This document shows positions 5,349 through 58,095 of a DNA stretch of 64,000 bases, in pieces (position 1 is the first letter of the stretch; the number at the start of each line of letters is the position of its first letter). The notes beneath the pieces are model-generated. The model saw nothing but the letters and a program-made list of their open reading frames with translations. It had not been told where the DNA came from and made no database searches. A program made the translations under genes and the position numbers. The DNA is from Halobacteria archaeon AArc-dxtr1 (GTDB taxonomy: Archaea; Halobacteriota; Halobacteria; Halobacteriales; Natrialbaceae): positions 205,367 to 269,366 of the forward strand of contig JAOPJY010000003.1 of NCBI GenBank assembly GCA_025517425.1, written 5' to 3'.

Positions 5349-5354
5349 TGACGA

Positions 5355-6911: not shown

Positions 6912-6968
6912 GCCAGGATATTTCCCAAATACGATGTCTCTCCCGAGAATGTCGAGTGAGAATGGCGT

Positions 6969-16826: not shown

Positions 16827-16854
16827 TGGCGCACCTCCGCGCTGATCTGTGTCG

Positions 16855-37330: not shown

Positions 37331-37498
37331 CTCGAAATTAAGTGGTTTTCCGAGGGTTCCGAAACCGACAGTAGGAACGCTGTTCGCCACGAATACCGCC
37401 GAATCCCCATTTCTGAGTCGTCCATTTTTAGGAGAGTCCACCACGGACCGTTGCGCACCTCGACGCCCTCGAGCGGTCAGTAGAGGGAGGTGGTCCGC

Positions 37499-39770: not shown

Positions 39771-40003
39771 CGGGTGCCACCATCCCCTTCGACGCGATCT
39801 GCACCAGCTGCAAGCAGACCAAGGTCAAACACGTCCGTCCTCAGGAGGTCGGCCAGCACCCGCAGATCGATCCCGACGCGATCGACGCTTCCGAGTGCAC
39901 GTCGTTCAAGCACGTCTGCTACAATTGCGAGACAGCGACCTACTGGAATCCGGTAGATGTCCTGTCGGGCCTCCTCGCGAATGATGGGGGTGACGACGAG
40001 TGA
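39767..40003 (+). CDS. Small zinc-ribbon protein
   Basis: 78 aa. Two CxxC half-sites: ICTSCKQTKVKHVRPQE and KHVCYNCETATYW. An acidic C-terminus follows. It overlaps its neighbours by 4 bases on both sides. This is the fourth to sixth Cys-rich small protein in a row, depending on how the first is counted. Confidence 0.65.
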   Translation: MTGATIPFDAICTSCKQTKVKHVRPQEVGQHPQIDPDAIDASECTSFKHVCYNCETATYWNPVDVLSGLLANDGGDDE

Positions 40004-41982
40004 GCGACGATCGCGTCGACGACGAGTTCGACCTCCTCGAGGCCGCCGAGCCGATGGGCGCCGAAGAGGATAGCGTCGGCGGCGCGATCGACCAGGACAC
40101 TCCCACCGCTGGCGGCGACCAGGCTGACGGCAGCGTCGAGCTCGAGTTCGACGAGGACGACGTCGACGAGCCCGACGCGCGCTCGGTCTGTCGGTTCTGC
40201 GAGACCGAGTTCCGGACTGTCGTCGCTGAACGCCGTCACCACTCACAGGAACGCTGTGGCGAAAAGCCCGCGTCGTTCGTCCAGGACGCACGCAAGCTGA
40301 TCGATCCCCAACTCCACAAGTTCGGCGGCCAGTTCCTATTCGTTCCCGGCCTCGGTGATTTGCGTGGCTCGCAGGACGGGATGGCGCCGTATTTCGCGAT
40401 CGTCTCGCAGTTCGATCACTGTCAGATGGGCGACGACGGCGAAGACGACGTCGGCACCTTCGACTCGGCTGGTGATACGTGGAAGCTGAATCACGACGAA
40501 GAGAAGGTTAAGTACTGGCCGGGAAAGATCGAGACGCGCCCTGGAGACGCCGGCGATGCGTACTACGAGTATCAGGTCAACGTCGTCGCCGACGACGCCG
40601 TCGGGCGCAAGCGCATCAACTTTCAATTCCGTCCCTCGCTGCCCGAGGCAGTGAACGTCGAGACCGGCGAGCGAATCCAATCGATGCCCGCAGATCTCCC
40701 CGAGGGCGTTCGCGTTCAAGTCGAGAGCGCGAACGTCACACCCGCGGAGATCTTCGAGGTGTTGCAGGACTTGATGCGTCAGATCGACATCGACGCCGCC
40801 TATTTCGATCCCGACAACCTCCACGATCACTCCCGCGTCACCGGCCTTGAGCTCTACGTGCGCTGCATCCGCGAGATCGTCGAGAAGCAGGTCGTCGAGA
40901 CTGGCGCGCTGATGGATCGCCTCTCGCAGTTTTCGAGCGTCCGGCGCGGCCGCGGCGAGTACAAGTGGGACAACGAGGAGATAATCGGCCACCGTCACGC
41001 CGTCGCGATGAACGAAACCTCGCTCGGGAAGCTCTACCGGTCCAACGGCCACGAGGTCGGGAAGCTACTGAAGAGCTATCTGATGAAGAATCCCGAGAAG
41101 CAGGGCGGACCCACGGCGGAGCCGAAGATCGAGGTCCAGTGGAACAAGGAGTATTCGGACTACCTGGGCGGGAACGCGATTCCTTGGAGTGATCCAGAGG
41201 GTTACGACTTCGAGGACCTCCGCGACGAGCTCGACGAGTACCTCATGTTCGCGCTGAACGCAGCCGAGTTACCGCTTCGCGCTGATCCCACCGTGTACGT
41301 CCCCGACGAGTACTGGGACGTCACCGAGTCAGAGCGCGATATCCCGGTCCACGCCGATCCGACCGAGGAGCTTCGCGAGGCCGAGGAGGACCTCACGCGT
41401 GCGCAACTCGCTCGCGACGACACGACGTCGACCGATCGCGCCGTGATCAGGGCGCTGGCCGACGGCGGTCAGATGCACTACCAGCAGATCGTCGACGAGG
41501 CCGACGCCTCCTCGAGCAGCGTCTACCGCGCCGTCGATAAGTTCGGGACGCTCATCGACAAGGTTGGTCGTGGCAAGTACGATCTCGCCGACGACGTCGT
41601 CCGAAGCAAAGTCGAAGACGTGTTCGAGGCACTCGAGGACGTCACCGAGTGGGTCGAAGACGGCATCGAGGCGATCGTCGACGCCAACGACGAGATCGCC
41701 GGCGATTCCCCGCTCGCTCAGTGGGCGCGCCGGCACGGCGTTCACCTCTCCGAGCGCTACGACGAGATCGACGCTGAACTCACCGGTAGTTACTCCGAGT
41801 ACGAGCTGCGTCGCGTGCTTCGGGCCGGCCTCAAGGCCGCCCGCGACACTGGAGCGAACGTCGCAGCCCGCTTCATCTCCGGGGACTTCACCTACCAGGT
41901 TGGTTCCGAGCGCCGCGAAGATCAGCATCCGTTCACGACAGCTGGCGGATCCGTGCTTGTCCTTGGTCGGTCACTTCGCTAA
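40000..41982 (+). CDS. Large multidomain protein with zinc finger and winged helix, possibly replication-related (DUF7845-like)
   Basis: 660 aa with a GTG start overlapping the previous stop. After an acidic stretch there is a finger SVCRFCETEFRTVVAERRHH ending in RC. The body (about 90-420) is unrecognised mixed alpha/beta (FGGQFLFVPGLGDLRGSQDG). A winged helix lies at about 470-540 (DRAVIRALADGGQMHYQQIV, ASSSSVYRAVDKFGTLIDKV). A helical C-terminus follows. Similar large proteins appear in haloarchaeal plasmids and proviruses; a replication or partition role is inference only. The last 30 residues look unlike the rest and may be frame-shifted. Confidence 0.6.
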   Translation: MSDDRVDDEFDLLEAAEPMGAEEDSVGGAIDQDTPTAGGDQADGSVELEFDEDDVDEPDARSVCRFCETEFRTVVAERRHHSQERCGEKPASFVQDARKLIDPQLHKFGGQFLFVPGLGDLRGSQDGMAPYFAIVSQFDHCQMGDDGEDDVGTFDSAGDTWKLNHDEEKVKYWPGKIETRPGDAGDAYYEYQVNVVADDAVGRKRINFQFRPSLPEAVNVETGERIQSMPADLPEGVRVQVESANVTPAEIFEVLQDLMRQIDIDAAYFDPDNLHDHSRVTGLELYVRCIREIVEKQVVETGALMDRLSQFSSVRRGRGEYKWDNEEIIGHRHAVAMNETSLGKLYRSNGHEVGKLLKSYLMKNPEKQGGPTAEPKIEVQWNKEYSDYLGGNAIPWSDPEGYDFEDLRDELDEYLMFALNAAELPLRADPTVYVPDEYWDVTESERDIPVHADPTEELREAEEDLTRAQLARDDTTSTDRAVIRALADGGQMHYQQIVDEADASSSSVYRAVDKFGTLIDKVGRGKYDLADDVVRSKVEDVFEALEDVTEWVEDGIEAIVDANDEIAGDSPLAQWARRHGVHLSERYDEIDAELTGSYSEYELRRVLRAGLKAARDTGANVAARFISGDFTYQVGSERREDQHPFTTAGGSVLVLGRSLR

Positions 41983-44636: not shown

Positions 44637-44760
44637 GCGGTGTCTGACCGCCTCGTTTCGTCCCTCTATGATAAAACTACCAGCTGGGTGGTTGCTCAAT
44701 TCACCACGACGATCACCACTGATGCAACGTTTTGTTAGCCTGCTCGGTATCCTGCCGCGC
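44637..44760. promoter_or_regulatory. Divergent promoter between ATPase operon and membrane-protein block
   Basis: Leftward TATA-like agttttatcat at about 44671-44681 (complement). Rightward, the block accactgat at 44715-44723 and gttttg at 44729-44734 lies 32 bases before the ATG at 44761, suiting a leaderless start. The rightward part is repeated upstream of the 752-aa gene (54726-54777) at 38 of 52 positions with no gap. Confidence 0.6.
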
Positions 44761-45117
44761 ATGGCTCTAATGCCAGACGTACTGAAAGACTCAGCCCGCG
44801 AGGGTTGGGAGCTTGGTAGTGAAGATGGGCTTAGTGGCATCAGTAAAGCCGCTGGCCTTGCGGACGGGGCGTTTACGCTTCTGTTCGTGTTGATCATCCT
44901 CGCCGTGGCCGCACTGGTCGGTGGCGAATTCCTCGAAGCAATCCCGTCCGATGGAGCGTTCGGAGACTCCATCGACACGCTCGAGGACAACGCTGCGACC
45001 TCGTTCACGCTGTTCGCGGTCGGCCTGCTCATCATCCCGGCAGCCGCTGTCGTCGGCTACCTGTGGACGCAGATGGGCGGCATGATGAACGGCGGCCTTC
45101 AGCGAATGGGCCGGTGA
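44761..45117 (+). CDS. Two-helix membrane protein, candidate major capsid protein (paralogue A)
   Basis: 118 aa from the ATG at 44761; an internal ATG at 44770 would align better with paralogue B. A short amphipathic N-terminus (LKDSAREGWELGSEDGLSGI) precedes helix 1 TLLFVLIILAVAALVGGEFL. A polar loop of about 30 residues leads to helix 2 TLFAVGLLIIPAAAVVGYLW and a Gly/Met tail GGMMNGGLQRMGR. It shares most residues with the next gene. Fusellovirus capsid proteins VP1/VP3 are likewise small, two-helix and tandem; equivalence is inference from architecture. The promoter is of leaderless type. Confidence 0.75.
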   Translation: MALMPDVLKDSAREGWELGSEDGLSGISKAAGLADGAFTLLFVLIILAVAALVGGEFLEAIPSDGAFGDSIDTLEDNAATSFTLFAVGLLIIPAAAVVGYLWTQMGGMMNGGLQRMGR

Positions 45118-45123: not shown

Positions 45124-45480
45124 ATGCTGGACCAGCTCAAGCATAACGCAAATCGAGGATGGGAGATGGGCCGTGAAGACGGCTTCAGCGGCGTCACTCG
45201 AGCTGCGGGGCTTGCGGACGGGGCGTTTACGCTCCTGTTCGTGTTGATCATCCTCGCCGTGGCCGCACTGGTCGGTGGCGAATTCCTCGATGCTATCGAG
45301 GTCCCAACTGAAGATCCGACTCCGATCGAGGAGTCGATTGGCGACATCGAGTCCAACGCTTCGACAGCCTTCGTGCTGTTCGGCGTTGGCATCCTCGTGA
45401 TCCCGGCCGCTGCCGTTGTCGGCTATCTGTGGACGCAGATGGGCGGCATGATCGGTGGCGGCCTTCAGCGAATGCGCTAA
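45124..45480 (+). CDS. Two-helix membrane protein, candidate major capsid protein (paralogue B)
   Basis: 118 aa starting MLDQLKHNANRGWEMGREDG. The same layout as paralogue A: ADGAFTLLFVLIILAVAALV is nearly identical, the loop differs (VPTEDPTPIEESIGDIES), and helix 2 is VLFGVGILVIPAAAVVGYLW. The C-terminus is GGMIGGGLQRMR. The genes are 6 bases apart and the copies also match at the DNA level over the first helix. The pair looks like a tandem duplication with a diverging exposed loop. Confidence 0.75.
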   Translation: MLDQLKHNANRGWEMGREDGFSGVTRAAGLADGAFTLLFVLIILAVAALVGGEFLDAIEVPTEDPTPIEESIGDIESNASTAFVLFGVGILVIPAAAVVGYLWTQMGGMIGGGLQRMR

Positions 45481-45523: not shown

Positions 45524-45784
45524 ATGTCACAAGCACTCAGCAGGGCAGCGCTCGGCTTTGGCGTGTTGCTCGTCGGCCTTCTCACGACTATCGCAGCCGC
45601 CGATCTGGCATACGACGGCGCCGATAGCGAGGCCGACGTTCTCGACACGTTCCACCCGGTCGCCGAAACCGTCCTGCCACTCCTTCCGTTGATCGTCCTC
45701 TTCGTCGCCGTGTTCGGCCTGATCGGCGCGGCTGCGTGGTTTCTGAACACCGTCAAATCCGGTTCCGGAGGTGGTTACCGATGA
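45524..45784 (+). CDS. Two-helix membrane protein
   Basis: 86 aa. RAALGFGVLLVGLLTTIAAA, a polar loop with ADSEADVLDTFHPVAE, then LPLLPLIVLFVAVFGLIGAA and a Gly-rich basic end (KSGSGGGYR). The two-helix plan resembles the paralogues upstream, without clear sequence identity. It overlaps the next gene by 4 bases. A virion or membrane-assembly part is inferred from context. Confidence 0.68.
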   Translation: MSQALSRAALGFGVLLVGLLTTIAAADLAYDGADSEADVLDTFHPVAETVLPLLPLIVLFVAVFGLIGAAAWFLNTVKSGSGGGYR

Positions 45785-46107
45785 TCCTTGAGGTTTTGCT
45801 GGCGCTGCTCGCGATTGGCACGCTCGCATCCGCCGCGATGGCGCTCAAAGTCGCACCCGTGTATTCGGCGATGATGAGTATGGCCGTCTGGCTCGTCGTC
45901 GCGTACGCGTCGACGTCAGTTGACGTCCTTCTCGCAACCAACGACGAGGTCGTCACGCACACAGTCAACGAGCCAGCGCTGGCTATCCTCGCGTTCGGGA
46001 ACGCCGCGATCTCGTTGATCATCCTGGTCGCAGCCGTCGCTGGCCAGTACGGCGCTGGCGAACAGACCGGCATAGACGAACCCTACAATCCGACTGAACA
46101 CCCATGA
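45781..46107 (+). CDS. Membrane protein, three hydrophobic segments
   Basis: 108 aa beginning MILEVLLALLAIGTLASAAM. Further segments: AMMSMAVWLVVAYASTSVDV and LAILAFGNAAISLIILVAAV. The tail is polar (GEQTGIDEPYNPTEHP). It overlaps both neighbours by 4 bases. No family recognised. Confidence 0.66.
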   Translation: MILEVLLALLAIGTLASAAMALKVAPVYSAMMSMAVWLVVAYASTSVDVLLATNDEVVTHTVNEPALAILAFGNAAISLIILVAAVAGQYGAGEQTGIDEPYNPTEHP

Positions 46108-46727
46108 TGCGCAAGCGCAAACAACCCGAGCGACCAGATCCAGAAGAACAGCACCGACGGAGTCAAGAGCAGACCCAGCACTCCGCCGCAACACAGACCG
46201 CCGCCCAAGAGGCGGCCAAGAGCACGCCCGACCTCTCCGAGCTCCAGAGTAAGGAGTTCATCGAGACCGCCTTCGAGCCGGACGTCAACCGTGGCGATGG
46301 AGTCCCCGGGTTCGAGAACAACCGCCTCGAGGAGCGCTATGCTGCTGAGTTCGGTCGTCACGCTGGCCTTGGGAACATCACCCGAGAAGAGTGGGAAGAC
46401 CGCAAGCACCTCAACAGGGCTCGGGCAATCCTCGCGCTCCAGGAGTACCGCCGTCCGAACGGCCTCGGTTCCATGTGCCGGGAAGATATCCGAAAGGCGT
46501 GGACTGACGAAGACGAACCGCTCCCCAAGCGTGACGACGACCTCTCGCGCGAGGTTCGGGCGATGTTCGACGAGAAGACGAATCTTGAAAGCCTGTCGAT
46601 CGGTGCGAAAGGCTTCGACGGTCTCACCAAGATTCACGCGGTCACCTACTCTCAGAATGAGGGTGGATCAAGTGGCAAAAGCGGGCTTCTAAGCCGGATG
46701 ACTGGCGGCCTAATGGGGGGTAATTAG
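46104..46727 (+). CDS. Soluble hypothetical protein of the structural block
   Basis: 207 aa. The basic, Gln-rich start (MMRKRKQPERPDPEEQHRRS) looks disordered. A helical core follows: AAEFGRHAGLGNITREEWED, KHLNRARAILALQEYRRPNG. The C-terminus is Gly/Ser-rich (MTGGLMGGN). No domain is recognised. Given its place it may be a minor virion or scaffold protein. Confidence 0.62.
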   Translation: MMRKRKQPERPDPEEQHRRSQEQTQHSAATQTAAQEAAKSTPDLSELQSKEFIETAFEPDVNRGDGVPGFENNRLEERYAAEFGRHAGLGNITREEWEDRKHLNRARAILALQEYRRPNGLGSMCREDIRKAWTDEDEPLPKRDDDLSREVRAMFDEKTNLESLSIGAKGFDGLTKIHAVTYSQNEGGSSGKSGLLSRMTGGLMGGN

Positions 46728-47483
46728 ATGAAGGAATACATCCCCTTCACGCAGGCCCGCCGCCAGCGGTTATACGCGGAATCACTCCATCGACAGCGTG
46801 GAAACCACGAGGTTCTCCTGCAGATCGAGTATCCTGATGGCACCGAGCAGATGAAGCCTGCGGACTGGGATTCAACTGAATCCTGTTGGAAAACACCCGA
46901 CGAACAGCGGTTTTACTCGAAGGGATTCGGTGGCGACCCCGGGATCCTGAACGGAGTCCCGATCGTCCACGTCGACGCCAGCAACGCTGGAGTCGTCTCC
47001 AGAGAGGCTGCGAAAGCAGCTGCCCGAGAGGATGACTACGACTACGTCGACAGTGACGGGAACGCACTCGAAGTTGTGGAGACAGACGAAGACGGCGCTC
47101 CAATCAAAGTAACGTACTCTGACGATGTGGATAGCTCGGTCGCCTCTGATGGCGGTGCGATGGATATCGACGATGTAGATCTCGCGTACGATCTGTCAGC
47201 ACCAGAGGAGTACGATGGCGAGATCATCAAACGTCGTCTCGCGGGTTACTATGACCCGTATCCCGTCTCACGTCAGGAGGCAGACCAAGCCGTCGAGCAC
47301 GCGAAGAGTGCCGCGGCCGACGCGGCGGGAACGTTGAAGACATTCCTGATCGGCTTCGGAGTCGCCTTCGCCGCCATCCTTCTGTTCATCGTCCTCATGT
47401 GGCTGCTTGGCCAGATCGGTGGCGGTGAAGAAGGGGGGAACGTCATCCCTGCGATGGTGAACAGTATGGGGGTATTCCGATGA
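46728..47483 (+). CDS. Tail-anchored protein of the structural block
   Basis: 251 aa. Residues 1-190 are soluble, with an acidic strand-rich N-terminal domain (EVLLQIEYPDGTEQMKPADW) and a linker. A single membrane helix LIGFGVAFAAILLFIVLMWL lies near residues 205-230, then a Gly/Glu tail with NVIPAMVNSMGVFR. The N-terminus probably faces the virion or cell interior. It follows the previous gene without a gap. Confidence 0.64.
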   Translation: MKEYIPFTQARRQRLYAESLHRQRGNHEVLLQIEYPDGTEQMKPADWDSTESCWKTPDEQRFYSKGFGGDPGILNGVPIVHVDASNAGVVSREAAKAAAREDDYDYVDSDGNALEVVETDEDGAPIKVTYSDDVDSSVASDGGAMDIDDVDLAYDLSAPEEYDGEIIKRRLAGYYDPYPVSRQEADQAVEHAKSAAADAAGTLKTFLIGFGVAFAAILLFIVLMWLLGQIGGGEEGGNVIPAMVNSMGVFR

Positions 47484-47506: not shown

Positions 47507-50500
47507 ATGTCTGATCCGCCGGCAGAATTCGATCGATCTGTGGCCAGAGAGCAGCGACGCGAGTCTGCAATCGAGCGCCGTCGTCAAGAAGAGCAAGAAG
47601 AGCGGCTCCGCGAAGAGATTGCTGCAGCTGAGGGAGTCGACCCGGCTCACGTTGAGGTTGAGCAGAGGAATGGAGAGATCATCCCACGGCTCACAGACGA
47701 AGGTGAGCAGACCCTTATTGACCAGGAGCGAGAGCGTTCCCGTCAGGAACTTAGAGAAGAGGTTGCTGACGATCTTGGTCTTGAGGTGAGTCAAGTTGCA
47801 GTTGAGCGTGAAGACGAACAGTTCGTGGCCGAACCCACCGAAGAGGGCGAGCAGACGCTCCGCGATGCAGAGGTTGATCGAGCTCGGAGCGAGTTGAGAG
47901 ATGACGTTGCGGACGATCTCGGGCTGGATCCAGACCACGTGCGCGTTATCGAGACCGATGATGGTCTGACCGCAGAACCAACCTCACAGGGAGAGCAGAT
48001 CCTCGTTGACGAGGCAGAGACAGAGATACGTGAGGAAATCGCTGATGAAACTGGCGTGGATCCGGATGACGACATCATTATCGAGGATGGCGAGGCTCGC
48101 TTAACTGACGAGATCCAACAGCAACGCGAGCAAGAACAGCGAGAGGAATTTGTCTCCAGTCTCGACGATGAGATTACCGATCTCATCGATCCAGATCCCG
48201 ATGAGGATGTCGTTATCGACGATGGTCAGATCCAACTCGCCGACGGTGCGGAACAGCAACTCCAGGACGCCACTGAACAACGGCAACGCGAGGAGTTTGT
48301 CTCTGATCTTCGGACAGATGTTCCCGCCGGTACCCGTCTCGACGCAGATGAGGATGTCGTTGTCGAAGATGACGAGATTCGCCTCTCCTCGGACGCCCAG
48401 GACCGAATCCGAGATCTGCAGATCGAAGAGCACCGAGAAGAGGCTGCAGACGATATCGGCATTGATCCAGATGAACTTCGCGTTATCGATGATGGCGATG
48501 AGATCTCGCTCGAACCCACATCAGACGGTGAGGAACGCCTTGGTCGAGAGCGGTTGTTTGACCAGCGTTCGGAGTTAGCCGACGAACTCGGCATCCGTGA
48601 ACAGATGATCGACGTCGAAATGGACGGTGATGTTGATGACTGGGGACTCGATATGGACCCCTCCGTTGCTGGCCACGTCGATGATCCTGCAGACCTCCCT
48701 GGAATTGAAGACGAGCGGGACGAGTTCGCCGACGAACTTGGAATTGAGGTTGAGGATCTGAACATCACCACCGAGGATGGAGAGGTTGCCTTCGAGCCTG
48801 TTGGAGATGGCCGCGAGCAACTGGCTCGAGAAGGGTTGTTTGACCAGCGTTCGGAGTTAGCCGACGAGCTCGGCATCCGTGAACAGATGATCGACGTCGA
48901 AATGGACGGTGATGTTGATGACTGGGGACTCGATATGGACCCCTCCGTTGCTGGCCACGTCGATGATCCTGCAGACCTTCCAGGCGTTGGCAGCGCACGC
49001 GAGGGATTAGCCGACGATTTGGGAGTTTCAGAAGACCAGATCGATATCGACGCGGTCGGTGGCGAGATCTCTCTTGATCCGACGGATGAGGCGATCGAGG
49101 ATGTCACACGCAGAGAGCTCGATACACAGCGCTACGACGTCGCACGCGATCTCGGAATAGATCATCGGGCGCTTGAGATCGATACGGAAGGAGACGTCGA
49201 AGACTGGGGCTTCGATGTTGATCCCGGTCGTGTCAGCGATCCACTCGACGTCCCCGGCGTAGAGGATGCTCGAGAAGACTTTGCCGAGGAGTTGGGCGTC
49301 TCGGAAGATGAGATCGATATCGAAACCGTCGACGACGAGATCACGCTCGGACCAACAGAAGCTGCAGAGGAGCAACTGATACTTGACGAAGTGGCTGGTG
49401 AGCTTGGCGTGTCTCCTGACGATCTCGTTCTGACCGACGTCGATCCTCAGGACGTCGACGAGGTAGAAGAGATGCGTCGTCATTTCGCCGACGAAGTTGG
49501 GCTTTGGCCCGATGCAATCGACGTCAGCCAGCAAAACGGAGAGATTGGATTCAGCGTGGCCGACCGGTTCGACGGCTTCGAGGACGCCACTGAGACGATG
49601 GATTTCGAAGGAGAGTTGACTGGTGTCCAACTCGCGGACGATGCAGATCCGTTTGCCATCGATGCTGTCGAAGATCAACGCCAAGATGTCGCTGACGAGC
49701 TCGGCATCGATGAACATCTCGTTAGCGCCGATATCGAAGATGGTGCTGTCGAGTTCGATCTTCGACCTCGCGGCGAGGCGCTCGTCGAGCGCCAACATCT
49801 CGACGAACAACGCGAGGAGTTTGCCTCCGAGATCGGCGTCGAACCTGGAGACGTGGTGAGAGAAGACGACCAGTTCACAATATCTGAAGATGCCCAACTT
49901 GGGCAGGTTGAGCAACAGGTTTCAGAGGATCTCGGCATCAGTGCCGACGATCTCGAGGCGACGTTCCGTGACGAAGAAGTCGTTGCTGAAGAGCGATTTC
50001 GTCGATCTCGAATGGGGTTAGACGCTGACGACGTCCAAGAAGTCGATATCGATATCGATCCAGATGTCGAAAGCGAGCTGCTCCGAGACGATGCAGCCGA
50101 GACGCTCGGCATTGATCCCGGTGAGGTCGAGGGAGTCGACCCATCGACAGGCGAACTTGAGTTATCTCGTGGTGCTCAGGAGGATCTGCTGCTCGAGCAG
50201 ATCCAAGATGAAGATCCCGGTGTCGATCCAGACGACGTCAGCTTCGTCGAAGACGACGGCGAATTGGTTGCAGAGGTTGAGGGGCCGTCCACGTTCGACA
50301 TGGCTGTCGATCGTTTTGTCTCGATCGGTCGCGAAGAGCACACGCCCCAGGACATCGCCTCAGGCATCGCCGATGGTGTCGTCGATATCGGCTCCAACAT
50401 CAGAGAATCTGTTTCTGGGGCCGCCGAGACGGTTGTAGACGTTGGACAGGAAGCACACAGCCCGCAAGATATCGTGTCAGACGCTGTCGACACTGTTCCA

Positions 50501-52078
50501 ATCGACGAGCGAGCAGCCATCGCTGGCGGTGGCCTCTTGGCAGCACCAGATCCAGTGACCGACATTGGTGGCGCTGCGATCTTGACCGGCGGCGCGCTTG
50601 CAGGGGGAGCCGTGCTCGCTCACGAGCGGTTAACAGAGACTGAGATTGATGAGATCGAACAAGAGACACCAGGTCTGACTGGCGCCGAAATCGACATCCC
50701 AGAAGACAGTGTAGAGTGGGATGTAACCGAGATCGAGGCTCCTGAAGGGCGTGTTGAGTGGGATGCGACTGAGTTTGAAGCCCCTGGAGAACGCGTCGAA
50801 TGGGACACCACAGAACTCGACATCCCAGAAGATCGTCTGGAGTGGCACCAAGAGGAAGTTGGAGTTCCGGAGGACGTCATCGATGAACGGGCAGAGGTCG
50901 GTATTCCAACGATCGAAGCTGCCGAATTTGCGGGTCTCGATCGCCAGTTCGAGGAGGACATCGAACCCGTCTCCGAAGGCGTTAGTGCCGGCGTTATCAC
51001 CGCCGACGATCTCGTCGATCCCGACGAGATGCACCAAGGCGTCGAGCGCGAGCTCGAAGACCAGCAGTTCGACCAAGCCGATTTCGAGCTCGATCGCATC
51101 CAAGAGACGCTATCGGACGATGCGCTGGCCGAGCAAGAGGTCTTCGAAGATGTCACTGGCGAACTCACGCAAGGAGGGACGTTTAGAGACGTGCCCGGAC
51201 AGGCGATCTGGGATGATAGCGAAACACTGAGCCGCGTCGCTGGTGAGCAACTCGCTGAAGAGCCGACACCCGACGCCATCGAGGATACACTCGAGCTGAT
51301 CGAGCAAACCCGGCCGGAAGTATTCGACGACGCCACGACCGAAGCGCCTCAGGGCGTGTCTGAGAGTATCGTTCAGCAGCCAACCGATGCCGTCGATCAT
51401 GTTGGCGGCATCGCAGTTGGTCCAGGACTCGGTAGCGGCCCTCGAGCGCCAGTACTCCCAGACCAACCCGCGTTCGAAGAGCAGATCCTCGACCGGGGTG
51501 CGGTCCCGCCGCTGGTTGATGATGCCGTGCGGCTCGGTCCCGGAGAAGAAATCGTCCACGAACAGCCGTCAGCAATTCCGGAAACGCCACGCGAGCGGGT
51601 CGATTCTCATCTCCGAGAGGGTTTACACGAGCGCCTCGCGGACGACGTCGTCCAACAACCCCAGGGGCGCATCGATGTCGATGTGCCACCGATGGAGCAG
51701 CAACAGCCGGACGTCGGTGCGCCAATGGCACCTGAGCTTCGGACGGGAGTGGCACCATCCGACGAGTTCGTGAGCCCACTCTCACCCACTCAGGTTGAGG
51801 CCGACACCGAGGTCGCGAACCCACAAGAACACCAAGTGGCATTCGAGACGCCGTTCGTCACCCCTCAGGTCCATCAGACTGGTCGACAGGGTCGCCCGCC
51901 GCTTCGGGTGCCGATGCCCGATCTCGATGCCGAAGACGGGGCTGAAGGCGAGGTCCCCGGCTGGCAACAGGGCGACTATTTCAACCCGTTCGCTGGGCCG
52001 GGAGAGATCCTTGGCATCGGCGCTCCTGGCCAATCGCCGATGCAGGGCCTGTTCGGAGGAGGTGGCCAGCGTGGATAG
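47507..52078 (+). CDS. Giant modular repeat protein (1523 aa)
   Basis: The largest gene of the element. A strong ribosome binding site (ggaggaggtaa) lies just before the ATG. Residues about 1-900 are built of some 18-20 imperfect units of 40-50 residues, each an acidic helix, then ADELGI-type turn, then a beta pair (for example EEVADDLGLEVSQVAVERED followed by EPTEEGEQTL). Two units near residues 349-396 and 443-490 are almost identical. Residues about 990-1045 contain a hydrophobic Gly/Ala stretch (GGAAILTGGALAGGAVLAHE). About 1060-1130 carry five 15-residue repeats of the type RVEWDATEFEAPGE. The end is Pro/Gln-rich. A long structural, tether or tape-measure-like role is conceivable; no family recognised. 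Confidence 0.75.
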   Translation: MSDPPAEFDRSVAREQRRESAIERRRQEEQEERLREEIAAAEGVDPAHVEVEQRNGEIIPRLTDEGEQTLIDQERERSRQELREEVADDLGLEVSQVAVEREDEQFVAEPTEEGEQTLRDAEVDRARSELRDDVADDLGLDPDHVRVIETDDGLTAEPTSQGEQILVDEAETEIREEIADETGVDPDDDIIIEDGEARLTDEIQQQREQEQREEFVSSLDDEITDLIDPDPDEDVVIDDGQIQLADGAEQQLQDATEQRQREEFVSDLRTDVPAGTRLDADEDVVVEDDEIRLSSDAQDRIRDLQIEEHREEAADDIGIDPDELRVIDDGDEISLEPTSDGEERLGRERLFDQRSELADELGIREQMIDVEMDGDVDDWGLDMDPSVAGHVDDPADLPGIEDERDEFADELGIEVEDLNITTEDGEVAFEPVGDGREQLAREGLFDQRSELADELGIREQMIDVEMDGDVDDWGLDMDPSVAGHVDDPADLPGVGSAREGLADDLGVSEDQIDIDAVGGEISLDPTDEAIEDVTRRELDTQRYDVARDLGIDHRALEIDTEGDVEDWGFDVDPGRVSDPLDVPGVEDAREDFAEELGVSEDEIDIETVDDEITLGPTEAAEEQLILDEVAGELGVSPDDLVLTDVDPQDVDEVEEMRRHFADEVGLWPDAIDVSQQNGEIGFSVADRFDGFEDATETMDFEGELTGVQLADDADPFAIDAVEDQRQDVADELGIDEHLVSADIEDGAVEFDLRPRGEALVERQHLDEQREEFASEIGVEPGDVVREDDQFTISEDAQLGQVEQQVSEDLGISADDLEATFRDEEVVAEERFRRSRMGLDADDVQEVDIDIDPDVESELLRDDAAETLGIDPGEVEGVDPSTGELELSRGAQEDLLLEQIQDEDPGVDPDDVSFVEDDGELVAEVEGPSTFDMAVDRFVSIGREEHTPQDIASGIADGVVDIGSNIRESVSGAAETVVDVGQEAHSPQDIVSDAVDTVPIDERAAIAGGGLLAAPDPVTDIGGAAILTGGALAGGAVLAHERLTETEIDEIEQETPGLTGAEIDIPEDSVEWDVTEIEAPEGRVEWDATEFEAPGERVEWDTTELDIPEDRLEWHQEEVGVPEDVIDERAEVGIPTIEAAEFAGLDRQFEEDIEPVSEGVSAGVITADDLVDPDEMHQGVERELEDQQFDQADFELDRIQETLSDDALAEQEVFEDVTGELTQGGTFRDVPGQAIWDDSETLSRVAGEQLAEEPTPDAIEDTLELIEQTRPEVFDDATTEAPQGVSESIVQQPTDAVDHVGGIAVGPGLGSGPRAPVLPDQPAFEEQILDRGAVPPLVDDAVRLGPGEEIVHEQPSAIPETPRERVDSHLREGLHERLADDVVQQPQGRIDVDVPPMEQQQPDVGAPMAPELRTGVAPSDEFVSPLSPTQVEADTEVANPQEHQVAFETPFVTPQVHQTGRQGRPPLRVPMPDLDAEDGAEGEVPGWQQGDYFNPFAGPGEILGIGAPGQSPMQGLFGGGGQRG
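48552..48696 (+). repeat. 145-bp internal direct repeat, copy 1
   Basis: Identical to 48834-48978 at 144 of 145 positions (one A/G difference in a silent site). It encodes the ELGIREQMIDVEMDGDVDDW unit. The offset is 282 bases (94 codons), so frame is kept. Confidence 0.93.
48834..48978 (+). repeat. 145-bp internal direct repeat, copy 2
   Basis: Second copy of 48552-48696. The flanking units differ clearly, so the duplication or conversion is recent relative to the other repeats of the gene. Confidence 0.93.
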
Positions 52079-52322
52079 AGCGCAAACGTCGCTCCCGTAC
52101 ATGCTGCTCCTGGGAGCTGTGTCGTTTGTCCTGATGACCTACCTCTACGTTGTCCTGGACCCGGTCGTCACCGAGATCGTCGGGACATCGGCCTGGCAGG
52201 ATGGATCCGAGGAGACGATGGCCGGACGAGAGCGTCTTCTGGCGATGTGGGACGTTGCGCTGATTCTCGGCCTGACTGGTATCGGTCTCACTATCCTGTG
52301 GGCCTCACGGAGGGGAGTCTGA
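52071..52322 (+). CDS. Two-helix membrane protein
   Basis: 83 aa from a GTG overlapping the giant gene's stop. Segments LPYMLLLGAVSFVLMTYLYV and ALILGLTGIGLTILWASRRG flank a polar loop with WQDGSEETMAGRE. Same plan as the next gene. No family recognised. Confidence 0.65.
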   Translation: MDRAQTSLPYMLLLGAVSFVLMTYLYVVLDPVVTEIVGTSAWQDGSEETMAGRERLLAMWDVALILGLTGIGLTILWASRRGV

Positions 52323-52582
52323 TGCTGATCCTGCGCGTGATCGTCGTGATCGTCGGCCTCTTCACGCTCGTGTTGATGGGGCTGATGGTCGGGCTCGTCG
52401 TCGACCCGCTCTTCGAGGAGGTGATCGCCAACGATGCAGTCGAGTCGATGGGGATGGACCAGAGCCTGCGCGTTGCGATGATGATTGGTATGGGGATGGT
52501 CCTGCCGCTGCTCGGCGTGGCGGCGCTCATCTGGCTGCACACATCTGGACTGAAACACGACGTCGGACACCGGAGGTACTGA
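52322..52582 (+). CDS. Two-helix membrane protein
   Basis: 86 aa. LILRVIVVIVGLFTLVLMGL with GLVVDPLFEEVIANDAVE as loop, then MIGMGMVLPLLGVAALIWLH and a short basic tail. Both this and the preceding protein share a V-V-DP motif after helix 1, so they are probably distant paralogues. ATG overlaps the previous stop by one base. Confidence 0.65.
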   Translation: MLILRVIVVIVGLFTLVLMGLMVGLVVDPLFEEVIANDAVESMGMDQSLRVAMMIGMGMVLPLLGVAALIWLHTSGLKHDVGHRRY

Positions 52583-52584: not shown

Positions 52585-52686
52585 ATGACGACAGATGACC
52601 TGAAACGGCTCCAGGAAGAGGCGCTCGCAGAGGCGAATCGTGAACTGAACGCTGCGGCACGCACACGAATCCAGACCAATGATTGA
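52585..52686 (+). CDS. Tiny helical protein (33 aa)
   Basis: MTTDDLKRLQEEALAEANRE then LNAAARTRIQTND, a single amphipathic helix. It overlaps the next gene by 8 bases and follows the previous stop by 2 bases, which supports translation. No function known. Confidence 0.5.
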   Translation: MTTDDLKRLQEEALAEANRELNAAARTRIQTND

Positions 52687-53587
52687 CGAACAGAAGATCC
52701 GGGAGATCGTCCAAGACGAGCTCCAGAAGGCAGATGCATCGACAGCAGACGAACAAGACAGCGGAGGATACAGCCGGCGAAACATCTTGCAGGGGGCAGG
52801 CCTCTTCGGCTTCGGATCCCTCGCAGCAACGGCAGTTGGACGCGGAGGTATCGGCCAGGCCAGTGCCAACAACGGTGATGCTCTCTACGGCATTGATCAG
52901 ATCGGGCTACCAGACGATCGCGTCGAGACACTCTACGTCGACGAGGTTGACAGCGTCCTCGAGGCCGGAACGCTGGACGGAGATCTCGACGCAGACGGGT
53001 ACGATATCCAGAACGCTGGATCGGTCAGTACAGAGGAGGCAGATGTCGACGAGGCATTAGTGTCTCTTTTGAGGGACGGCGAAGCCAGAGTTGATCGGCG
53101 CGAAGTCTATGCTATCGAATTAACGGGACAAGGAGGATTTGACGAGACAATAGATGTGCCTCTCTCTGATGGAGTCACAACGATTGTTAGGGCAAAAGAT
53201 ATCGACGATGAGACTGGCAATGTCGAGATCCGATTGCAGTGGGGAGACAGGCAGAGCGACCGCTATACTTTCCTCCATCGGAATGAGCAAGGGGAGACTG
53301 ATAGAGAGGACAATGCCACATCATGGGCTCTGCTCACGCATCACGATGGGGACCGCAATGTCACATCTGGCGAGTGGACTATTCGTCAAACAAACGATGC
53401 TGCGGAAATATCAGGCAGTGGCTATGATATGTTTGGCGAAGAGCACGAAGCTCTAACAGCCGGCGGATTAAGTGGAACCAAAGAAGAGGACGAAATCCGT
53501 CTCGTCACCAATAACGATCCGTCGAGTGATAGTGATTTCAGTTGGGAGTTCCAAATTTTAATCGTGGATGGTGGTTTGGGAAACTGA
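52679..53587 (+). CDS. Tat-exported adhesin-like protein
   Basis: 302 aa. A helical N-terminus (IREIVQDELQKADAS) precedes a twin-arginine signal GYSRRNILQGAGLFGFGSLA at about residues 30-50. After it comes a short repeat region typical of archaeal virus and surface fibres (LDADGYDIQNAGSVSTEEAD). A beta-rich C-terminal domain follows (ETDREDNATSWALLTHHDGD). From about 53040 the gene is visibly richer in A and T than the block before it. A receptor-binding or surface role is inferred. Confidence 0.68.
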   Translation: MIDEQKIREIVQDELQKADASTADEQDSGGYSRRNILQGAGLFGFGSLAATAVGRGGIGQASANNGDALYGIDQIGLPDDRVETLYVDEVDSVLEAGTLDGDLDADGYDIQNAGSVSTEEADVDEALVSLLRDGEARVDRREVYAIELTGQGGFDETIDVPLSDGVTTIVRAKDIDDETGNVEIRLQWGDRQSDRYTFLHRNEQGETDREDNATSWALLTHHDGDRNVTSGEWTIRQTNDAAEISGSGYDMFGEEHEALTAGGLSGTKEEDEIRLVTNNDPSSDSDFSWEFQILIVDGGLGN

Positions 53588-53630: not shown

Positions 53631-54647
53631 ATGAATGTGAAGTTTGAAACTTACGACGAAAACGGGACACCCCCCTCAGAATACGACTCATACGGAATGT
53701 TTCGTCTGGATGGAGTCGCAGGACAGACGGTTAATTTTGTCTGGGACAATGTGGATGACATCCGGGATGACCGCGTTCCGAGTGATTATAATCTCCTATG
53801 GACGACAGATGTGGATGACCCGGATAGCTGGCAACGATTCGAGGACAGTCCCCCTATTTGGTCCAAGTCATTTGGTCCAGACGAAAACACGGTTTACGTC
53901 CTCATATGGCCGTCATTGAACTACCAAAACACAGTCGATTATGCCCAAAAACTCGACGAACACGACGAAGTAACTCTTGATGTTATAGGGCAAAGCCAGG
54001 AGGGGCGTGATGTCTACCGAATGGCTATCTCAGACCCTGAAGTTCCTGACAGTGACAAATTAAAATTCCCAATATTCTCAAGAATCCATCCGGGTGAATC
54101 TTTGATAAGTTACACTTTTGAGGGTATGGTTGATTACATCCTTGACGTCTTCCAGGACCCTGATATTGAGTTCGAGGAGGACTACAATTTCCTTTGTTAC
54201 CCGCATCTACATCCCGATGGAATGTATCATGGTTGGGACCGCTACGATGCCGACGAAAGGGACTTTAATCGGGTCTGGGAAGAGGAGACTCCCCCTGCCC
54301 CGATTGATGACATTCGCTCGGACATCGAGGATATGCCGGGAGAGCCAGATTGGTTAGTCGATCTCCACTGTGCAACGCACACCGATCAGGACGCAGCTCT
54401 ATACCATCCCGATGCTCCAAACGCTGACGAGATGGATATAATCGAGGCTGTGGCCGATAAATCGCTATCGATGAGCGACACGAAAGCATGGGACACTGAG
54501 GGGGGAACGACTACTTGGTGGTATGAGAAGCACGGGAGACCGGGAGTGTTGAGCGAGACATGGACTTACTACGACTACGAATTGGACGAACTCAGAGAGG
54601 AGGGGGAAAACTTCATGAAGGAATTGACAACGACTGTTGACTCCTGA
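53631..54647 (+). CDS. M14-family zinc carboxypeptidase
   Basis: 338 aa. The M14 active site is complete: H153 and E156 in SRIHPGESL, H246 in WLVDLHCATH, the Asn-Arg pair in DFNRVW (N213, R214), and catalytic E309 in GVLSETWTYY. Supporting motifs are VIGQSQEGRDVYRMAIS and CYPHLHPDGMYHGWD. A beta-rich N-terminal domain of about 100 residues precedes it, like the N-domain of cytosolic carboxypeptidases. There is no signal peptide. Base composition is lower in G+C than the flanks, suggesting acquisition. The substrate could be a host or virion protein's C-terminus. Confidence 0.9.
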   Translation: MNVKFETYDENGTPPSEYDSYGMFRLDGVAGQTVNFVWDNVDDIRDDRVPSDYNLLWTTDVDDPDSWQRFEDSPPIWSKSFGPDENTVYVLIWPSLNYQNTVDYAQKLDEHDEVTLDVIGQSQEGRDVYRMAISDPEVPDSDKLKFPIFSRIHPGESLISYTFEGMVDYILDVFQDPDIEFEEDYNFLCYPHLHPDGMYHGWDRYDADERDFNRVWEEETPPAPIDDIRSDIEDMPGEPDWLVDLHCATHTDQDAALYHPDAPNADEMDIIEAVADKSLSMSDTKAWDTEGGTTTWWYEKHGRPGVLSETWTYYDYELDELREEGENFMKELTTTVDS

Positions 54648-54825: not shown

Positions 54826-57084
54826 ATGGGATCTGACACAGGACTCAGCCGGAAACAGCGCGTCCTCTTAGTCCTGGCTGGCGCGCTTTTCGTCCTCGTG
54901 CTTCCACTTCTCGTCAACGCAGCACTCTCATCGCTCTACACCGCTGAGCCCGGGATTACGTACGATTCCAGCGACGGCCCACAGATCGAGTTAGCGACCG
55001 AACTCGAGAGTGACGCCGCCGAGCCCTTCCCCGAAGAGAACACCGTCGACATGAGCCCGCAGGCCGAGTTCTACAGTGACGGCCCGACTCAGGCGACCGT
55101 CGACCAGTTCGGCGACGACGGGTCACAGACACAGCTCTCGGATCTGAACGTCTCTGATCACCAGCTCGAGATCGATGTCGGCGATCGCGAGCGCGTGGCT
55201 ATCCAGGGCGACGCGGACGAGATCGCGTTCAACGATCCGGACGTGGACGCGGGCGAGGTGATGACCGTCACCCAGTCGGGCACCAGCGAGATCTCCATCT
55301 GGGGTGTCGACGACGAACTCGTCGCTGTTATCGACTCGGACAGTCAGGAGATTATCGAGTGGGTCGAGCCCGACGACGGGATCGTGACGTTCGACGTCGA
55401 CGGTGACCGCTCGATCGAGATGTTATCGGGAGAACCGCCTGTGATCGATTCCGACAGCGCCGAACCTGTCGGCGACCAGGACGAGTTCCCCGAGTCGTTG
55501 CAGGTTGACGTCGAATCCGGCTCCGGAATTGACGAAGACCTTGACGTCGAGTTCGAGCTGAACGGTGAAGACGTCGGCAGCGATACCGTCACCGGTTCCG
55601 GGACGGCATCCACCTCAGTTGACGTCGACGACGTCGGAACACACACGTGGACAGTGACCGTTACGAACGAATTCGGCGACACGTCGACTGAAGAGTTCGA
55701 GTTCGAACTCGACGACACACCACCAGAGATCGATCGCGACAGCGCCGAGCCCGTCGGCGACCTCTCGACGATGCCCGACGACCTCAGCGTCGACATCGCA
55801 CCCGGAACAGACTTTGCGAGCGAGTTCGAGGCCGAGTTCGAGCTCAACGGCGAGTCAGTCGGCACCGACAGCTTCGACGGATCAGGGACTGCGTCAGTCC
55901 CATTCGACGAAGAGGACGGTGGCTCACACACCTGGTCGGTGACCGTCACCGACGAGTTTGGACAGTCGTCAACTGAAGAGTTCGAGTTCGCCTTCCCAGA
56001 CGAACTCATCATCCGCGACGTCACCACGGCCGAGGTCATCAACGAGGCGAACGTCACAGTCGAGTTCTTCAGCGGCGAGTTAGTGACTGAGGCGCAGACG
56101 ACCGACGGCGTCATCGATATGGGGGGTGTGCCGGTTGAGGAGAACCTGATCGTTTCCATCGACGCCGAAGGCTACCACAGCCGGACAACGATCATTCCCT
56201 CCATCCTCGAGCAGCAGACCGCTTGGATGCTCGACCAAGACGAAGACTCCGTCCTCAACGAGTTCGAGATCAACGACGAGACCGGCAGCTTCCAGACCGG
56301 AGAAACGCGTCTCGAGATCAGTCGCCCGATCCCTGATGAAGACACTGACGAGCGCACGTTCGAGGTCGTTGCTGGCGATTACTTCGGTGCAGATGGTGTC
56401 TTCCCCGTCGAACTCGCCACGGGGCAGCGCTACCAGCTTGCGGTCGTCAACGACGACGGCGAGCGCCGATCCGTCGGGACATACACCCCACGGACAGACG
56501 GCCTTCGAACGATCGACATCGGATCCACATCGTGGAGTCTCGGCGACGACGAGAGTTACGCAACCGAGGCACGATACACGACCGAGGAGATCGACGGTGA
56601 GGAGGTCGATCATATCATCTTCGAGTTCGGCGATCCCGAGAATCGCGTTTCGGACTTGGAAGTCCGCGTCGAGGACCGATTCAACAGTTCGAACGTGATC
56701 CACGACGAGTCCGTCGCCGATCCAAGTGACTACCGGCTCGTTCTCCCGCTCGAGGAGGACCAAACAGACACACAATGGGTTATCAACTACAGCGCAACCG
56801 TCGACGGAGAAGTACGGCAAGCCAAGATGCCAGTCGGGCCTTCGGAGGACATCCCCCTCCCCATGGACGCACAATGGCTCCAGACGCTCGTGATCGTCGC
56901 GCTTGTCGTGCTTGCCGCGGCGTTCCCCGGCCCACTGTCCTCCATCGGCGGCGCCGTCGTCGTCTCGATGGCCGGTCTCGCCATGATGGCTGGCTGGCTT
57001 GGGATCCCCGTCTCCGCCTGGTTCGTCGCCGCGACGATCGCGGCGTTGGGCATCCTACGAGCGAGGGAGGCTGAAACGATATGA
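54826..57084 (+). CDS. Membrane-anchored Ig-like surface protein, candidate virion spike
   Basis: 752 aa. An N-terminal membrane helix (VLLVLAGALFVLVLPLLVNA, about 13-32) is followed by a long extracellular part. Two related Ig-like domains of about 95 residues lie near 205-400 (each with DSAEPVGD and ending in HTWTVTVTNEFGDTSTEEFE or a near copy). Further beta-rich domains follow to about 680, including a carboxypeptidase-regulatory-like region (VTVEFFSGELVTEAQTTDGV). Two or three helices close the protein (LQTLVIVALVVLAAAFPGPL). The size and anchoring recall fusellovirus end-filament proteins, an analogy only. Confidence 0.72.
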   Translation: MGSDTGLSRKQRVLLVLAGALFVLVLPLLVNAALSSLYTAEPGITYDSSDGPQIELATELESDAAEPFPEENTVDMSPQAEFYSDGPTQATVDQFGDDGSQTQLSDLNVSDHQLEIDVGDRERVAIQGDADEIAFNDPDVDAGEVMTVTQSGTSEISIWGVDDELVAVIDSDSQEIIEWVEPDDGIVTFDVDGDRSIEMLSGEPPVIDSDSAEPVGDQDEFPESLQVDVESGSGIDEDLDVEFELNGEDVGSDTVTGSGTASTSVDVDDVGTHTWTVTVTNEFGDTSTEEFEFELDDTPPEIDRDSAEPVGDLSTMPDDLSVDIAPGTDFASEFEAEFELNGESVGTDSFDGSGTASVPFDEEDGGSHTWSVTVTDEFGQSSTEEFEFAFPDELIIRDVTTAEVINEANVTVEFFSGELVTEAQTTDGVIDMGGVPVEENLIVSIDAEGYHSRTTIIPSILEQQTAWMLDQDEDSVLNEFEINDETGSFQTGETRLEISRPIPDEDTDERTFEVVAGDYFGADGVFPVELATGQRYQLAVVNDDGERRSVGTYTPRTDGLRTIDIGSTSWSLGDDESYATEARYTTEEIDGEEVDHIIFEFGDPENRVSDLEVRVEDRFNSSNVIHDESVADPSDYRLVLPLEEDQTDTQWVINYSATVDGEVRQAKMPVGPSEDIPLPMDAQWLQTLVIVALVVLAAAFPGPLSSIGGAVVVSMAGLAMMAGWLGIPVSAWFVAATIAALGILRAREAETI

Positions 57085-57452
57085 AGGGACTCCAGATCGC
57101 CGCCTTCGTGTTCTGTTTCAGCCTCTCGATCGGCTTACTCGCCGGCCTCGGGTGGTTCGACGTCGTCGGGACGCAGCCCGATCCCGGGATCGACAACACC
57201 GACGCCGTCGAAGAAGAGGCTGAAGAGGTCGAAGCAGGTGGAGAGAGCAGCCGGGATGAAGGCATCCTCGGCACCATTGGGGCAGTCAACGACGTGATCA
57301 ACACCCTCAGGACGTTAACAGTGCAGACCGGGTCAGCCCTGACGAATCTGGGGGTCCCGGCGCCGATCGCGTACGCGATCCACTCTGTCGTCGCGCTCGC
57401 GCTCCTGGTCACGATGCTCGAGATCATCCGTGGTATGAGGTTCGGAACATGA
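57081..57452 (+). CDS. Two-helix membrane protein
   Basis: 123 aa. AAFVFCFSLSIGLLAGLGWF, an acidic loop (DAVEEEAEEVEAGGESSRDE), an amphipathic segment NDVINTLRTLTVQTGSALTN, then AIHSVVALALLVTMLEIIRG. Start overlaps the previous stop by 4 bases. No family recognised. Confidence 0.66.
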   Translation: MKGLQIAAFVFCFSLSIGLLAGLGWFDVVGTQPDPGIDNTDAVEEEAEEVEAGGESSRDEGILGTIGAVNDVINTLRTLTVQTGSALTNLGVPAPIAYAIHSVVALALLVTMLEIIRGMRFGT

Positions 57453-57742
57453 GAGGCGATCGCGAGTGGTACCGGTATCTCGGTGAGGGAGAGTTCTGGG
57501 ATGCGCTCTTTCAGCCACACATCGACACGGTCGGAACCGCCGGTCTGGCGATGCTTATCGGAGTGCCGCTGATCCTCTCGCTCTACGCCTGGACGGGGAC
57601 GTTCCTCATTCCAGCAATCATCCTGGCACTGTTCGGCGGCATCATGATCATGGCGGCGCCGCCCCAGCTCGCGATCATCGGGACGCTCATGGTCGTGACT
57701 GCAGTGACGATCTCGTTGCTCTCGGTCTGGGGTGACACCTGA
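57449..57742 (+). CDS. Membrane protein, three hydrophobic segments
   Basis: 97 aa. After REWYRYLGEGEFWDALFQPH the segments are GLAMLIGVPLILSLYAWTG, LIPAIILALFGGIMIMAA and IIGTLMVVTAVTISLLSV. It is coupled to both neighbours by overlapping start and stop codons. Unknown family. Confidence 0.66.
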   Translation: MRGDREWYRYLGEGEFWDALFQPHIDTVGTAGLAMLIGVPLILSLYAWTGTFLIPAIILALFGGIMIMAAPPQLAIIGTLMVVTAVTISLLSVWGDT

Positions 57743-58095
57743 TGTCGATCGCACACCGAGAGGTTCGGACGTGGCGGTGGCTCGTCTGGTTGCTCGTCCC
57801 GGCGCTCCCGCTGCACGAGCTCACGCACGCGATCGTCGCGAAGCCCTGGGCCGATGTCGAGATCGACTGGCACCACCCGATGGTCATCATGCACTGGGAC
57901 GATGCGCCCCCGTGGGCGATCCTCTGCGCTCACGTCGCGCCGCTGTTGATCGGCTGTCTCGTCGGCAGCGCGGCGCTGTTCGCCTTTGCGATCGGGTTCG
58001 TTCCCGAGCTCCACTTCTTGGTCTGGGTGTGGCTCCTCGGCAACTGGTTCAATTACACAGCGCTGACGCTGCAGGACCTACGCGTCTTCTCCTGA
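57742..58095 (+). CDS. Small membrane protein with HELTH metalloprotease-like motif
   Basis: 117 aa. Helix 1 is WLVWLLVPALPLHELTHAIV; the HELTH fits the HExxH zinc motif of membrane-embedded metalloproteases and of DUF3267-type proteins. A third ligand could be in IDWHHPMVIMHWDD or in the later ELHFLVWVWLLGNWFNYTAL. Last gene of the coupled structural block. It might process one of the membrane proteins, but this is inference. Confidence 0.7.
   Translation: MSIAHREVRTWRWLVWLLVPALPLHELTHAIVAKPWADVEIDWHHPMVIMHWDDAPPWAILCAHVAPLLIGCLVGSAALFAFAIGFVPELHFLVWVWLLGNWFNYTALTLQDLRVFS

Follow-up and report, generated by a model that had tools for sequence, protein, structure and literature searches.

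How the genome is held and shaped inside a spindle-shaped virion is poorly understood. The closest described system to the locus considered here is LSV-48N, a Haloferax virus whose lemon-shaped particles measure 65-90 x 35-50 nm and are shed chronically (PMC12714723). In that report, 13 LSV-48N proteins were detected by LC-MS/MS in the culture supernatant in all three replicates; in the most abundant, residues 365-549 form a beta-sandwich and the C-terminus resembles an SSV19 tail protein. It also states that no LSV-48N ORF resembles a known capsid protein, that there are related proviruses in Haloferax, and that the virus lowers the transcription of host defence genes (PMC12714723). Related Haloferax proviruses are also described in a second report (PMC12596717), and LSV-48N has been named among the viruses with DUF7845 proteins (PMC13107129). 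Before the present work, the LSV-48N group was known from this one isolate and the Haloferax proviruses. Haloarchaeal elements have also been described as plasmids or plasmid vesicles, among them PL23 of Natronomonas pharaonis, a plasmid with a chromosome-integrated copy (PMC3119063), and the pR1SE-like plasmid-vesicle elements (apHPV), which have a core set of ten genes that includes the subtilisin-like ORF7, and ORF6 (PMC10818511).

The window analysed here, a stretch of 64,000 nucleotides from contig JAOPJY010000003.1 of Halobacteria archaeon AArc-dxtr1, contains a relative of LSV-48N. A tRNA-Ala(GGC) gene found by ARAGORN at 37259..37331 on the forward strand is the integration target and holds the attL core CCCGGCGAGTCCAC at 37318-37331. 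The contig ends 2.6 kb past the window, and its last 13 bases (66588-66600 in window numbering) repeat CCCGGCGAGTCCA, the 3' end of the tRNA-Ala; a 335-aa tyrosine integrase adjoins this att copy. Across much of the interval from the tRNA-Ala to the contig end, the GC fraction drops from ~0.65 to 0.55-0.60. The interval constitutes a provirus, about 29 kb in length (29.3 kb by estimate), and its tRNA-Ala, 13-bp att copy, and integrase represent the temperate, integrating trait of LSV-48N-like elements. It encodes an AAA+ ATPase that matches phrog_7998 and a DUF7845 replication protein of the Rep-Arvir type (40000..41982, forward strand; PF25227, E=2e-88), whose LSV-48N counterpart matches the same model at E=4.5e-93. 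Because this DUF7845 protein and a module of particle genes are common to both, the provirus is a relative of LSV-48N, and it constitutes a new, distant member of that group. Elsewhere in the window, at 4001-8000, GC is 0.54-0.56 amid a host region of 0.64-0.69, which is perhaps another inserted element.

The particle module lies entirely on the forward strand. It opens with two two-helix membrane proteins, at 44752..45117 (start codon uncertain) and 45124..45480, the second of which is 72% identical to the first. Given their alignment with the two-helix proteins of relatives, they are candidate major capsid proteins. With VP1/VP3 of SSV1 and VP21 of His1 they share only the two-helix architecture; comparison of the candidate capsid sets with VP1/VP3 and VP21 by hhalign gave no significant match (probability <=1%), and neither did profile searches of solved structures. 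A small two-helix membrane protein (45524..45784) and a small membrane protein (45736..46107), both recognised from their sequences, are followed by a conserved soluble protein of ~200 aa (class c200, 46104..46727) and a conserved protein anchored in the membrane by its C-terminus (class c250, 46728..47483), each of these profile classes being present in 8 of the 16 sequences scanned. The c250 gene directly precedes that of a modular repeat protein (47507..52078), the main subject of this analysis. Beyond it are a small membrane protein (52247..52582), in a position that small membrane proteins occupy in the relatives too, and a variable slot, which here holds a protein with a twin-arginine-like signal and no Pfam match (52679..53587) and an M14 zinc carboxypeptidase (53631..54647; PF00246, E=2.3e-9). 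The module continues with a 752-aa adhesin or spike (54826..57084), which has a signal-like hydrophobic N-terminus, Ig-like domains, and C-terminal membrane helices, and with two conserved membrane proteins (57081..57452 and 57449..57742). It ends with a membrane protein that carries an HExxH motif (57742..58095) and has a weak match, under the curated cut-off, to the zincin family DUF3267 (PF11667, E=6.9e-4).

Profiles of the flanking genes recover the same order in relatives: the repeat protein is preceded by the candidate capsid protein or proteins, c200, and c250, and is followed by small membrane proteins, the variable slot, and the adhesin, after which come two further small membrane proteins and the HExxH protein. 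By this measure the module is complete in the window, in LSV-48N, and in loci L027 and L028, and partial in the remaining loci; the repeat protein travels with small membrane proteins of the kind among which the first-pass annotation of this DNA had seen it. In 13 of the 14 loci that have both genes, that of the repeat protein comes first and is separated from the adhesin gene by 1-4 others; in PL23 it follows the adhesin. The variable slot contains the M14 carboxypeptidase in the window (53631-54647), a LamG-domain protein in Natrinema (L002, 15553-16281), and a right-handed beta-helix protein in L025 (8188-9663), and looks like a site for exchangeable host-surface enzymes or binders. Of the 16 sequences scanned, 8 have the HExxH membrane protein, a candidate intramembrane protease of assembly, at the end of the module (window 57742-58095, L002, L003, L004, L006, L027, L028, and L032).

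The repeat protein is encoded by an open frame that begins with the ATG at 47507 and specifies 1523 residues. It contains no Lys and no Cys and has a net charge of -356, of which residues 1-950 alone account for -250. Residues 30-927 (47594..50287), as delimited by a unit profile and structure models, consist of an array of alpha-beta-beta units of ~48 residues each, of which 19-20 can be counted by eye. With an HMM made from 10 of the protein's own units, 24 stretches are recognised, of which 19 score >=7 bits; in 200 shuffled sequences, the best domain found with this HMM scored 8.4 bits. A profile built from the units of other proteins reaches a summed score of 119.6 bits on the 1523-aa protein, compared with a maximum of 11.0 in 500 shuffles, and the full unit profile identifies 15 units at >=7 bits, all within residues 30-927. 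Part of the array is a direct repeat (48539..49027) of 207 nt with a spacing of 282 nt, in which 48539-48745 and 48821-49027 are 88% identical (94% over 170 nt). Given this degree of identity, the array has grown recently through duplication.

Three further regions follow the array. A Gly/Ala-rich hydrophobic segment, found by hydropathy at residues 993-1043 (50483..50635), is only borderline as a transmembrane helix, because its Kyte-Doolittle peak is just 1.45 over 21 residues. Residues 1054-1123 (50666..50875), which come next, form five 14-residue repeats of type VEWDATEFEAPGER. The period of these RVEWDATEFEAPGE-type repeats is exactly 14, and the 26 identities at lag 14 exceed the maximum of 19 at any lag from 5 to 30 in 2000 shuffles. 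The C-terminal region (residues 1181-1523, 51047..52075) is rich in Pro (11%) and Gln (9%), and its last 110 residues contain a weak motif common to the relatives. The first-pass annotation had described a modular protein of 1523 residues with two repeat types, 18-20 units, a Gly/Ala hydrophobic stretch, five short repeats, and a Pro/Gln-rich end; the frame is open, both the unit profile and the lag-14 test exceed their shuffled controls, and all of these elements are found. The lack of Lys and Cys and the direct repeat within the array are additions to that description. Pfam matches on the protein (Homeodomain, SASP, IF2_N, and DUF6388) are under the curated cut-offs, cover 13-45 residues, and are attributed to chance similarity to a recurrent LADELG-type helix.

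No signal sequence is visible at the N-terminus of the 1523-aa protein, a feature that bears on where the protein would act. Its gene adjoins those of the adhesin and of the protein with the twin-arginine-like signal, and the 14-residue repeats are beta-strand-like, as might be expected of a surface or secreted protein such as a fibre or an S-layer-binding protein. However, the adhesin starts with a hydrophobic signal-like segment whereas the repeat protein has no such visible signal, and the hydrophobic segment of the repeat protein is internal to the chain across the family. A surface location is therefore distinctly unlikely.

Structure prediction modifies one aspect of the initial description. 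AlphaFold2 models a single unit, from a 24-row alignment, as helix-strand-strand-helix with a mean pLDDT of 94.2; a four-unit array (residues 28-216, 10 rows) is modelled with a mean pLDDT of 92.3 and a pTM of 0.67, many of the alignment rows in both cases being the protein's own units. Thus, the repeat unit called "helix-turn-beta" in the first-pass annotation is real as a unit, and its fold is better described, according to these models, as a helix, a beta-hairpin, and a helix. In the array model, the last helix of one unit is continuous with the first helix of the next over 27 residues, so that hairpins hang on long shared helices. Foldseek searches gave nothing at E<=0.001 in the PDB or among viral predicted structures, and sequence searches of solved structures with the 1523-aa protein and the unit profile gave nothing under E 0.27. 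VIA reached at most Z 2.8 with the unit and Z 4.1 with the array (to part of MutS), with many wings of winged-helix proteins near 3; values of this size are evidence of neither kinship nor a new fold. In comparisons with MarR/PadR, only the wing and adjacent helices are alike (winged-helix rows Z 2.3-3.4); the likeness is thus a local helix-wing-helix (PadR) one, and no chain is above a structural Z of 4.1. A second local likeness, of helix-turn-hairpin type, is to the swapped hairpin of SpoVT-AbrB/MazE, whose Pfam model, PF04014, misses the units.

The winged-helix likeness (best Z of 2.8 for the unit, 2.9-3.4 for the winged-helix rows of the array) raises the idea of a virion protein that binds or condenses the genome. 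Common arrangements usually give Z values of this size, and the strong negative charge and absence of Lys, evident already in residues 1-950, make the wrapping of DNA unlikely, an argument that is tempered by the acidity of haloarchaeal proteins in general and by the net charge of only -27 of the LSV-48N homologue. Overall, genome binding is very unlikely. The same composition could instead suit an acidic mimic of DNA, a decoy in the particle or made with it that acts against host nucleases or restriction: the array would be extended, regular, strongly acidic, and free of Lys, and LSV-48N is reported to lower host defence gene transcription (PMC12714723). Against a decoy stand the structural position of the gene, the general acidity of haloarchaeal proteins, and the wide variation of charge within the family, again exemplified by LSV-48N. 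We consider a decoy highly improbable.

Relatives of the repeat protein were reached through the neighbouring adhesin and not through the repeat protein itself. Direct tblastn searches with the 1523-aa protein found none in the collections of phages, plasmids, viral_contigs, and genome_contigs, and only the protein itself in 41 genomes. With the 752-aa adhesin as the query, four haloarchaeal plasmids were found, and the adhesin of PL23 in turn led to LSV-48N. When 146 haloarchaeal genomes were searched with a profile of six adhesins, 13 of them, the genome of the window included, gave a match at E<=1e-10; in viral_contigs, searched with three single adhesins, there was no match. Flanks were fetched for 10 of the 12 other adhesin-positive genomes (G071 and G114 were left out). 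All eight loci with a strong adhesin match have an ORF of 827-1336 aa without Cys shortly before the adhesin, and the two weak adhesin loci (G074 and G089) have no repeat protein. Two more relatives, one of 1397 aa (L065) and one truncated (L066), were reached with the unit profile, and no adhesin was found near either.

The same architecture, consisting of alpha-beta-beta units, one central Gly/Ala hydrophobic segment, and a low-complexity tail, is conserved in 14 relatives: LSV-48N, the four plasmids, and nine further haloarchaeal genomes. The resulting count of 15 family proteins omits L066, whose 701 aa are truncated by the end of the contig, and treats the tandem copies of L005 as one. 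In the named relatives, the repeat proteins are annotated solely as hypothetical proteins, and no paper describing the family was found in a literature search judged by title or the start of the abstract. The earlier impression that no archaeal virus protein resembles this one is not upheld, given that LSV-48N has an 824-aa homologue in the same place, as indicated by the leave-one-out profile described below and by BLASTP (E=8e-4 in a database of 6 sequences).

Several of the loci have peculiarities of their own. The L065 (6913-11106) and L066 (2-2104) repeat-protein genes are found beside ParA-like and integrase genes, with no adhesin match in the fetched stretch, and are possibly in decayed elements, that of L066 being cut by the contig end. 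Because PL23 (L004, NC_007428, 1-23486) carries an LSV-like particle module, in which the candidate capsid genes form a tandem pair, it is probably a virus genome. In the Halomicrobium urmianum plasmid (L005, 1-28834), LSV-like genomes are arranged in tandem with a spacing of 14,077 bp, which could represent a concatemer or an effect of assembly; this spacing of identical copies serves as the estimate of the L005 genome length.

Multiple lines of evidence unite the family. When each protein was scored with a unit profile from which its own units had been left out, 13 of the 14 proteins tested (window, L002-L006, and L025-L032, with L065 left out of the 15) were above all 500 shuffles; the training units were hand-picked, which favours recognisable ones. 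The one that fails, L002, has no unit, yet its C-terminal half is homologous to the LSV-48N protein (BLASTP E=4e-16, in the database of 6 sequences); in the same database, the window and PL23 proteins are 31% identical over 349 aa with E=1.6e-6. Among 651 ORFs of >=150 aa from 16 sequences, the unit profile at E<=0.01 yields 13 family rows, representing 12 proteins and one tandem copy, together with two proteins outside the family, the anchored protein of L027 (15.1 bits) and a 189-aa LSV-48N protein (14.0 bits). The L027 protein (15865-16905, reverse strand), which precedes the repeat protein, carries one unit at 13.7 bits, hinting that units were transferred from one of these genes to the other or that they bind the same partner. 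In the 146 haloarchaeal genomes, all unit matches at E<=1e-6 are in family frames of 710-1524 aa; those that fall elsewhere, with E 2e-4 to 0.01, are scattered. Four of these were inspected: by our own reading, one is of AbrB type, another is thioredoxin-like, and the remaining two are different proteins. The alternative raised in the first-pass annotation, that the units belong to a known repeat family with a cellular function, thus finds neither a fitting Pfam family nor a match at E<=1e-6 outside the gene family in these 146 genomes. An origin of the units from AbrB/MazE, suggested by a 91-aa AbrB/MazE-type antitoxin (L067, 5715-5990, 26 bits), was considered and rejected: in 6 genomes searched with PF04014 at E<=10, no match is located inside a repeat-protein gene, and of 31 single units, one matches the model at E=0.03.

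Composition gives a second signature. Cys is absent from all 15 family proteins and Lys also from 5 of them. Among 51 control rows of >=600 aa, 16 of which are from the repeat-protein family, the 6 rows that lack Lys all belong to the family, and Cys is missing from 16 of 16 family rows versus 7 of 35 others. The most hydrophobic 21-residue stretch lies behind the last unit in every one of the 14 proteins that have units at >=7 bits, with a peak across the family of 0.78-1.45. The C-terminal motif, in a leave-one-out test, exceeds all 300 shuffles in only 9 of 15 proteins, and is therefore used as weak support.

The number of units varies within the family: at >=7 bits, the window protein has 15 and its 14 relatives have 0-4, making it the most expanded of the 15. 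The first-pass annotation suggested that the protein might set a length; it would then be a molecular ruler or tape measure whose unit number determines the length of the particle or genome. By our own arithmetic, each linking helix of ~27 residues would measure ~4 nm if straight, and twenty of them ~80 nm, which is near the length of the LSV-48N particle. Yet LSV-48N itself has 2 detected units and particles of 65-90 nm (PMC12714723), and no correlation is seen between protein length and genome length (Spearman rho 0.31, p 0.54, n=6, the window and L005 genome lengths being estimated). These results count against a ruler, which has a very slim chance of being correct. If recombination can freely change the number of units, the array would act as an adjustable spacer or a multivalent binder and not as a fixed ruler.

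Together, these observations point to a structural or assembly protein in the interior of LSV-like virions that is associated with the membrane, a reading to which we give roughly even chances of being right. The protein belongs to a virus element, as shown by the provirus and by the particle module in common with LSV-48N, and within that module its gene has on one side that of a conserved membrane protein anchored at its C-terminus and on the other, beyond intervening genes, that of the adhesin. In the absence of a signal sequence, we infer that it would stay in the cytoplasm, on the side that becomes the interior of the budded particle. The hydrophobic segment may then lie on or in the viral membrane, although such contact is uncertain because its peak of 0.78-1.45 across the family is under a clear transmembrane value. 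The acidic array and the Pro/Gln-rich tail might reach into the lumen and contact the lattice of membrane proteins, so as to give a multivalent link from shell to lumen and, between the envelope and the genome, a matrix or scaffold. Hence, of the roles in the first-pass annotation, the internal scaffold or tether is still the best reading and the setting of length is not upheld; the tether is the least certain step. A related idea is that the protein is a transient assembly scaffold or an organiser of budding that is present in cells but not in mature particles. The position of the gene and the architecture fit such a scaffold equally, the Pro/Gln tail is interaction-rich, and the HExxH membrane protein of the module, with its weak DUF3267 match, could be a processing protease. 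Nothing specific speaks against it, as the sequences do not separate a transient from a permanent virion part; the fit is almost as good as that of a matrix within the virion, and we regard the transient scaffold as a possibility, if an unlikely one.

The genes of this protein family span several haloarchaeal families, include that of a cultivable virus, LSV-48N, and are open to deletion or tagging. The LSV-48N group, described within Haloferax, now extends to PL23 of Natronomonas, to Natrinema, Halobaculum, and Halomicrobium plasmids, and to further haloarchaeal genomes, so that several "plasmids" become likely virus genomes.

Comparison with other spindle-shaped viruses defines what may be particular to this group. 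His1 (Halspiviridae) and SSV1 (Fuselloviridae) likewise combine small two-helix membrane proteins with a large attachment protein, and there is no repeat-protein gene in their annotated records; the gene is therefore not needed for a spindle shape in general. It is conceivable, though we hold this tentatively and consider it doubtful, that in the halophilic lemon-shaped viruses, unlike SSV1 and His1, the recombining alpha-beta-beta array of a giant modular internal protein links the shell of membrane proteins with the genome and helps to determine the mechanics or shape of the spindle; the array would then be an arrangement absent among solved structures. The PL23 protein (WP_011323373.1, 1036 aa, hypothetical) is 31% identical over 349 aa, has a similar Gly/Ala segment, and lacks Lys and Cys; it differs in having 2 scored units and a gene placed after the adhesin block. 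For LSV-48N (PP151251), the most abundant supernatant protein would be the adhesin homologue WWZ16970.1, because length and domains agree (Big_13 at 370-453). Both LSV-48N and the window element hold adhesin, c200, c250, HExxH, and DUF7845 genes, with adhesins that are ~30% identical and genomes of 24.9 kb and about 29 kb, respectively. The LSV-48N repeat protein (WWZ16973.1, hypothetical) has 824 aa, 2 detected units, and 22 Lys, whereas that of the window has 1523 aa, 15 scored units, and no Lys; the two proteins have the same gene order, the same type of unit, an inner hydrophobic segment, the C-terminal motif, and a complete absence of Cys.
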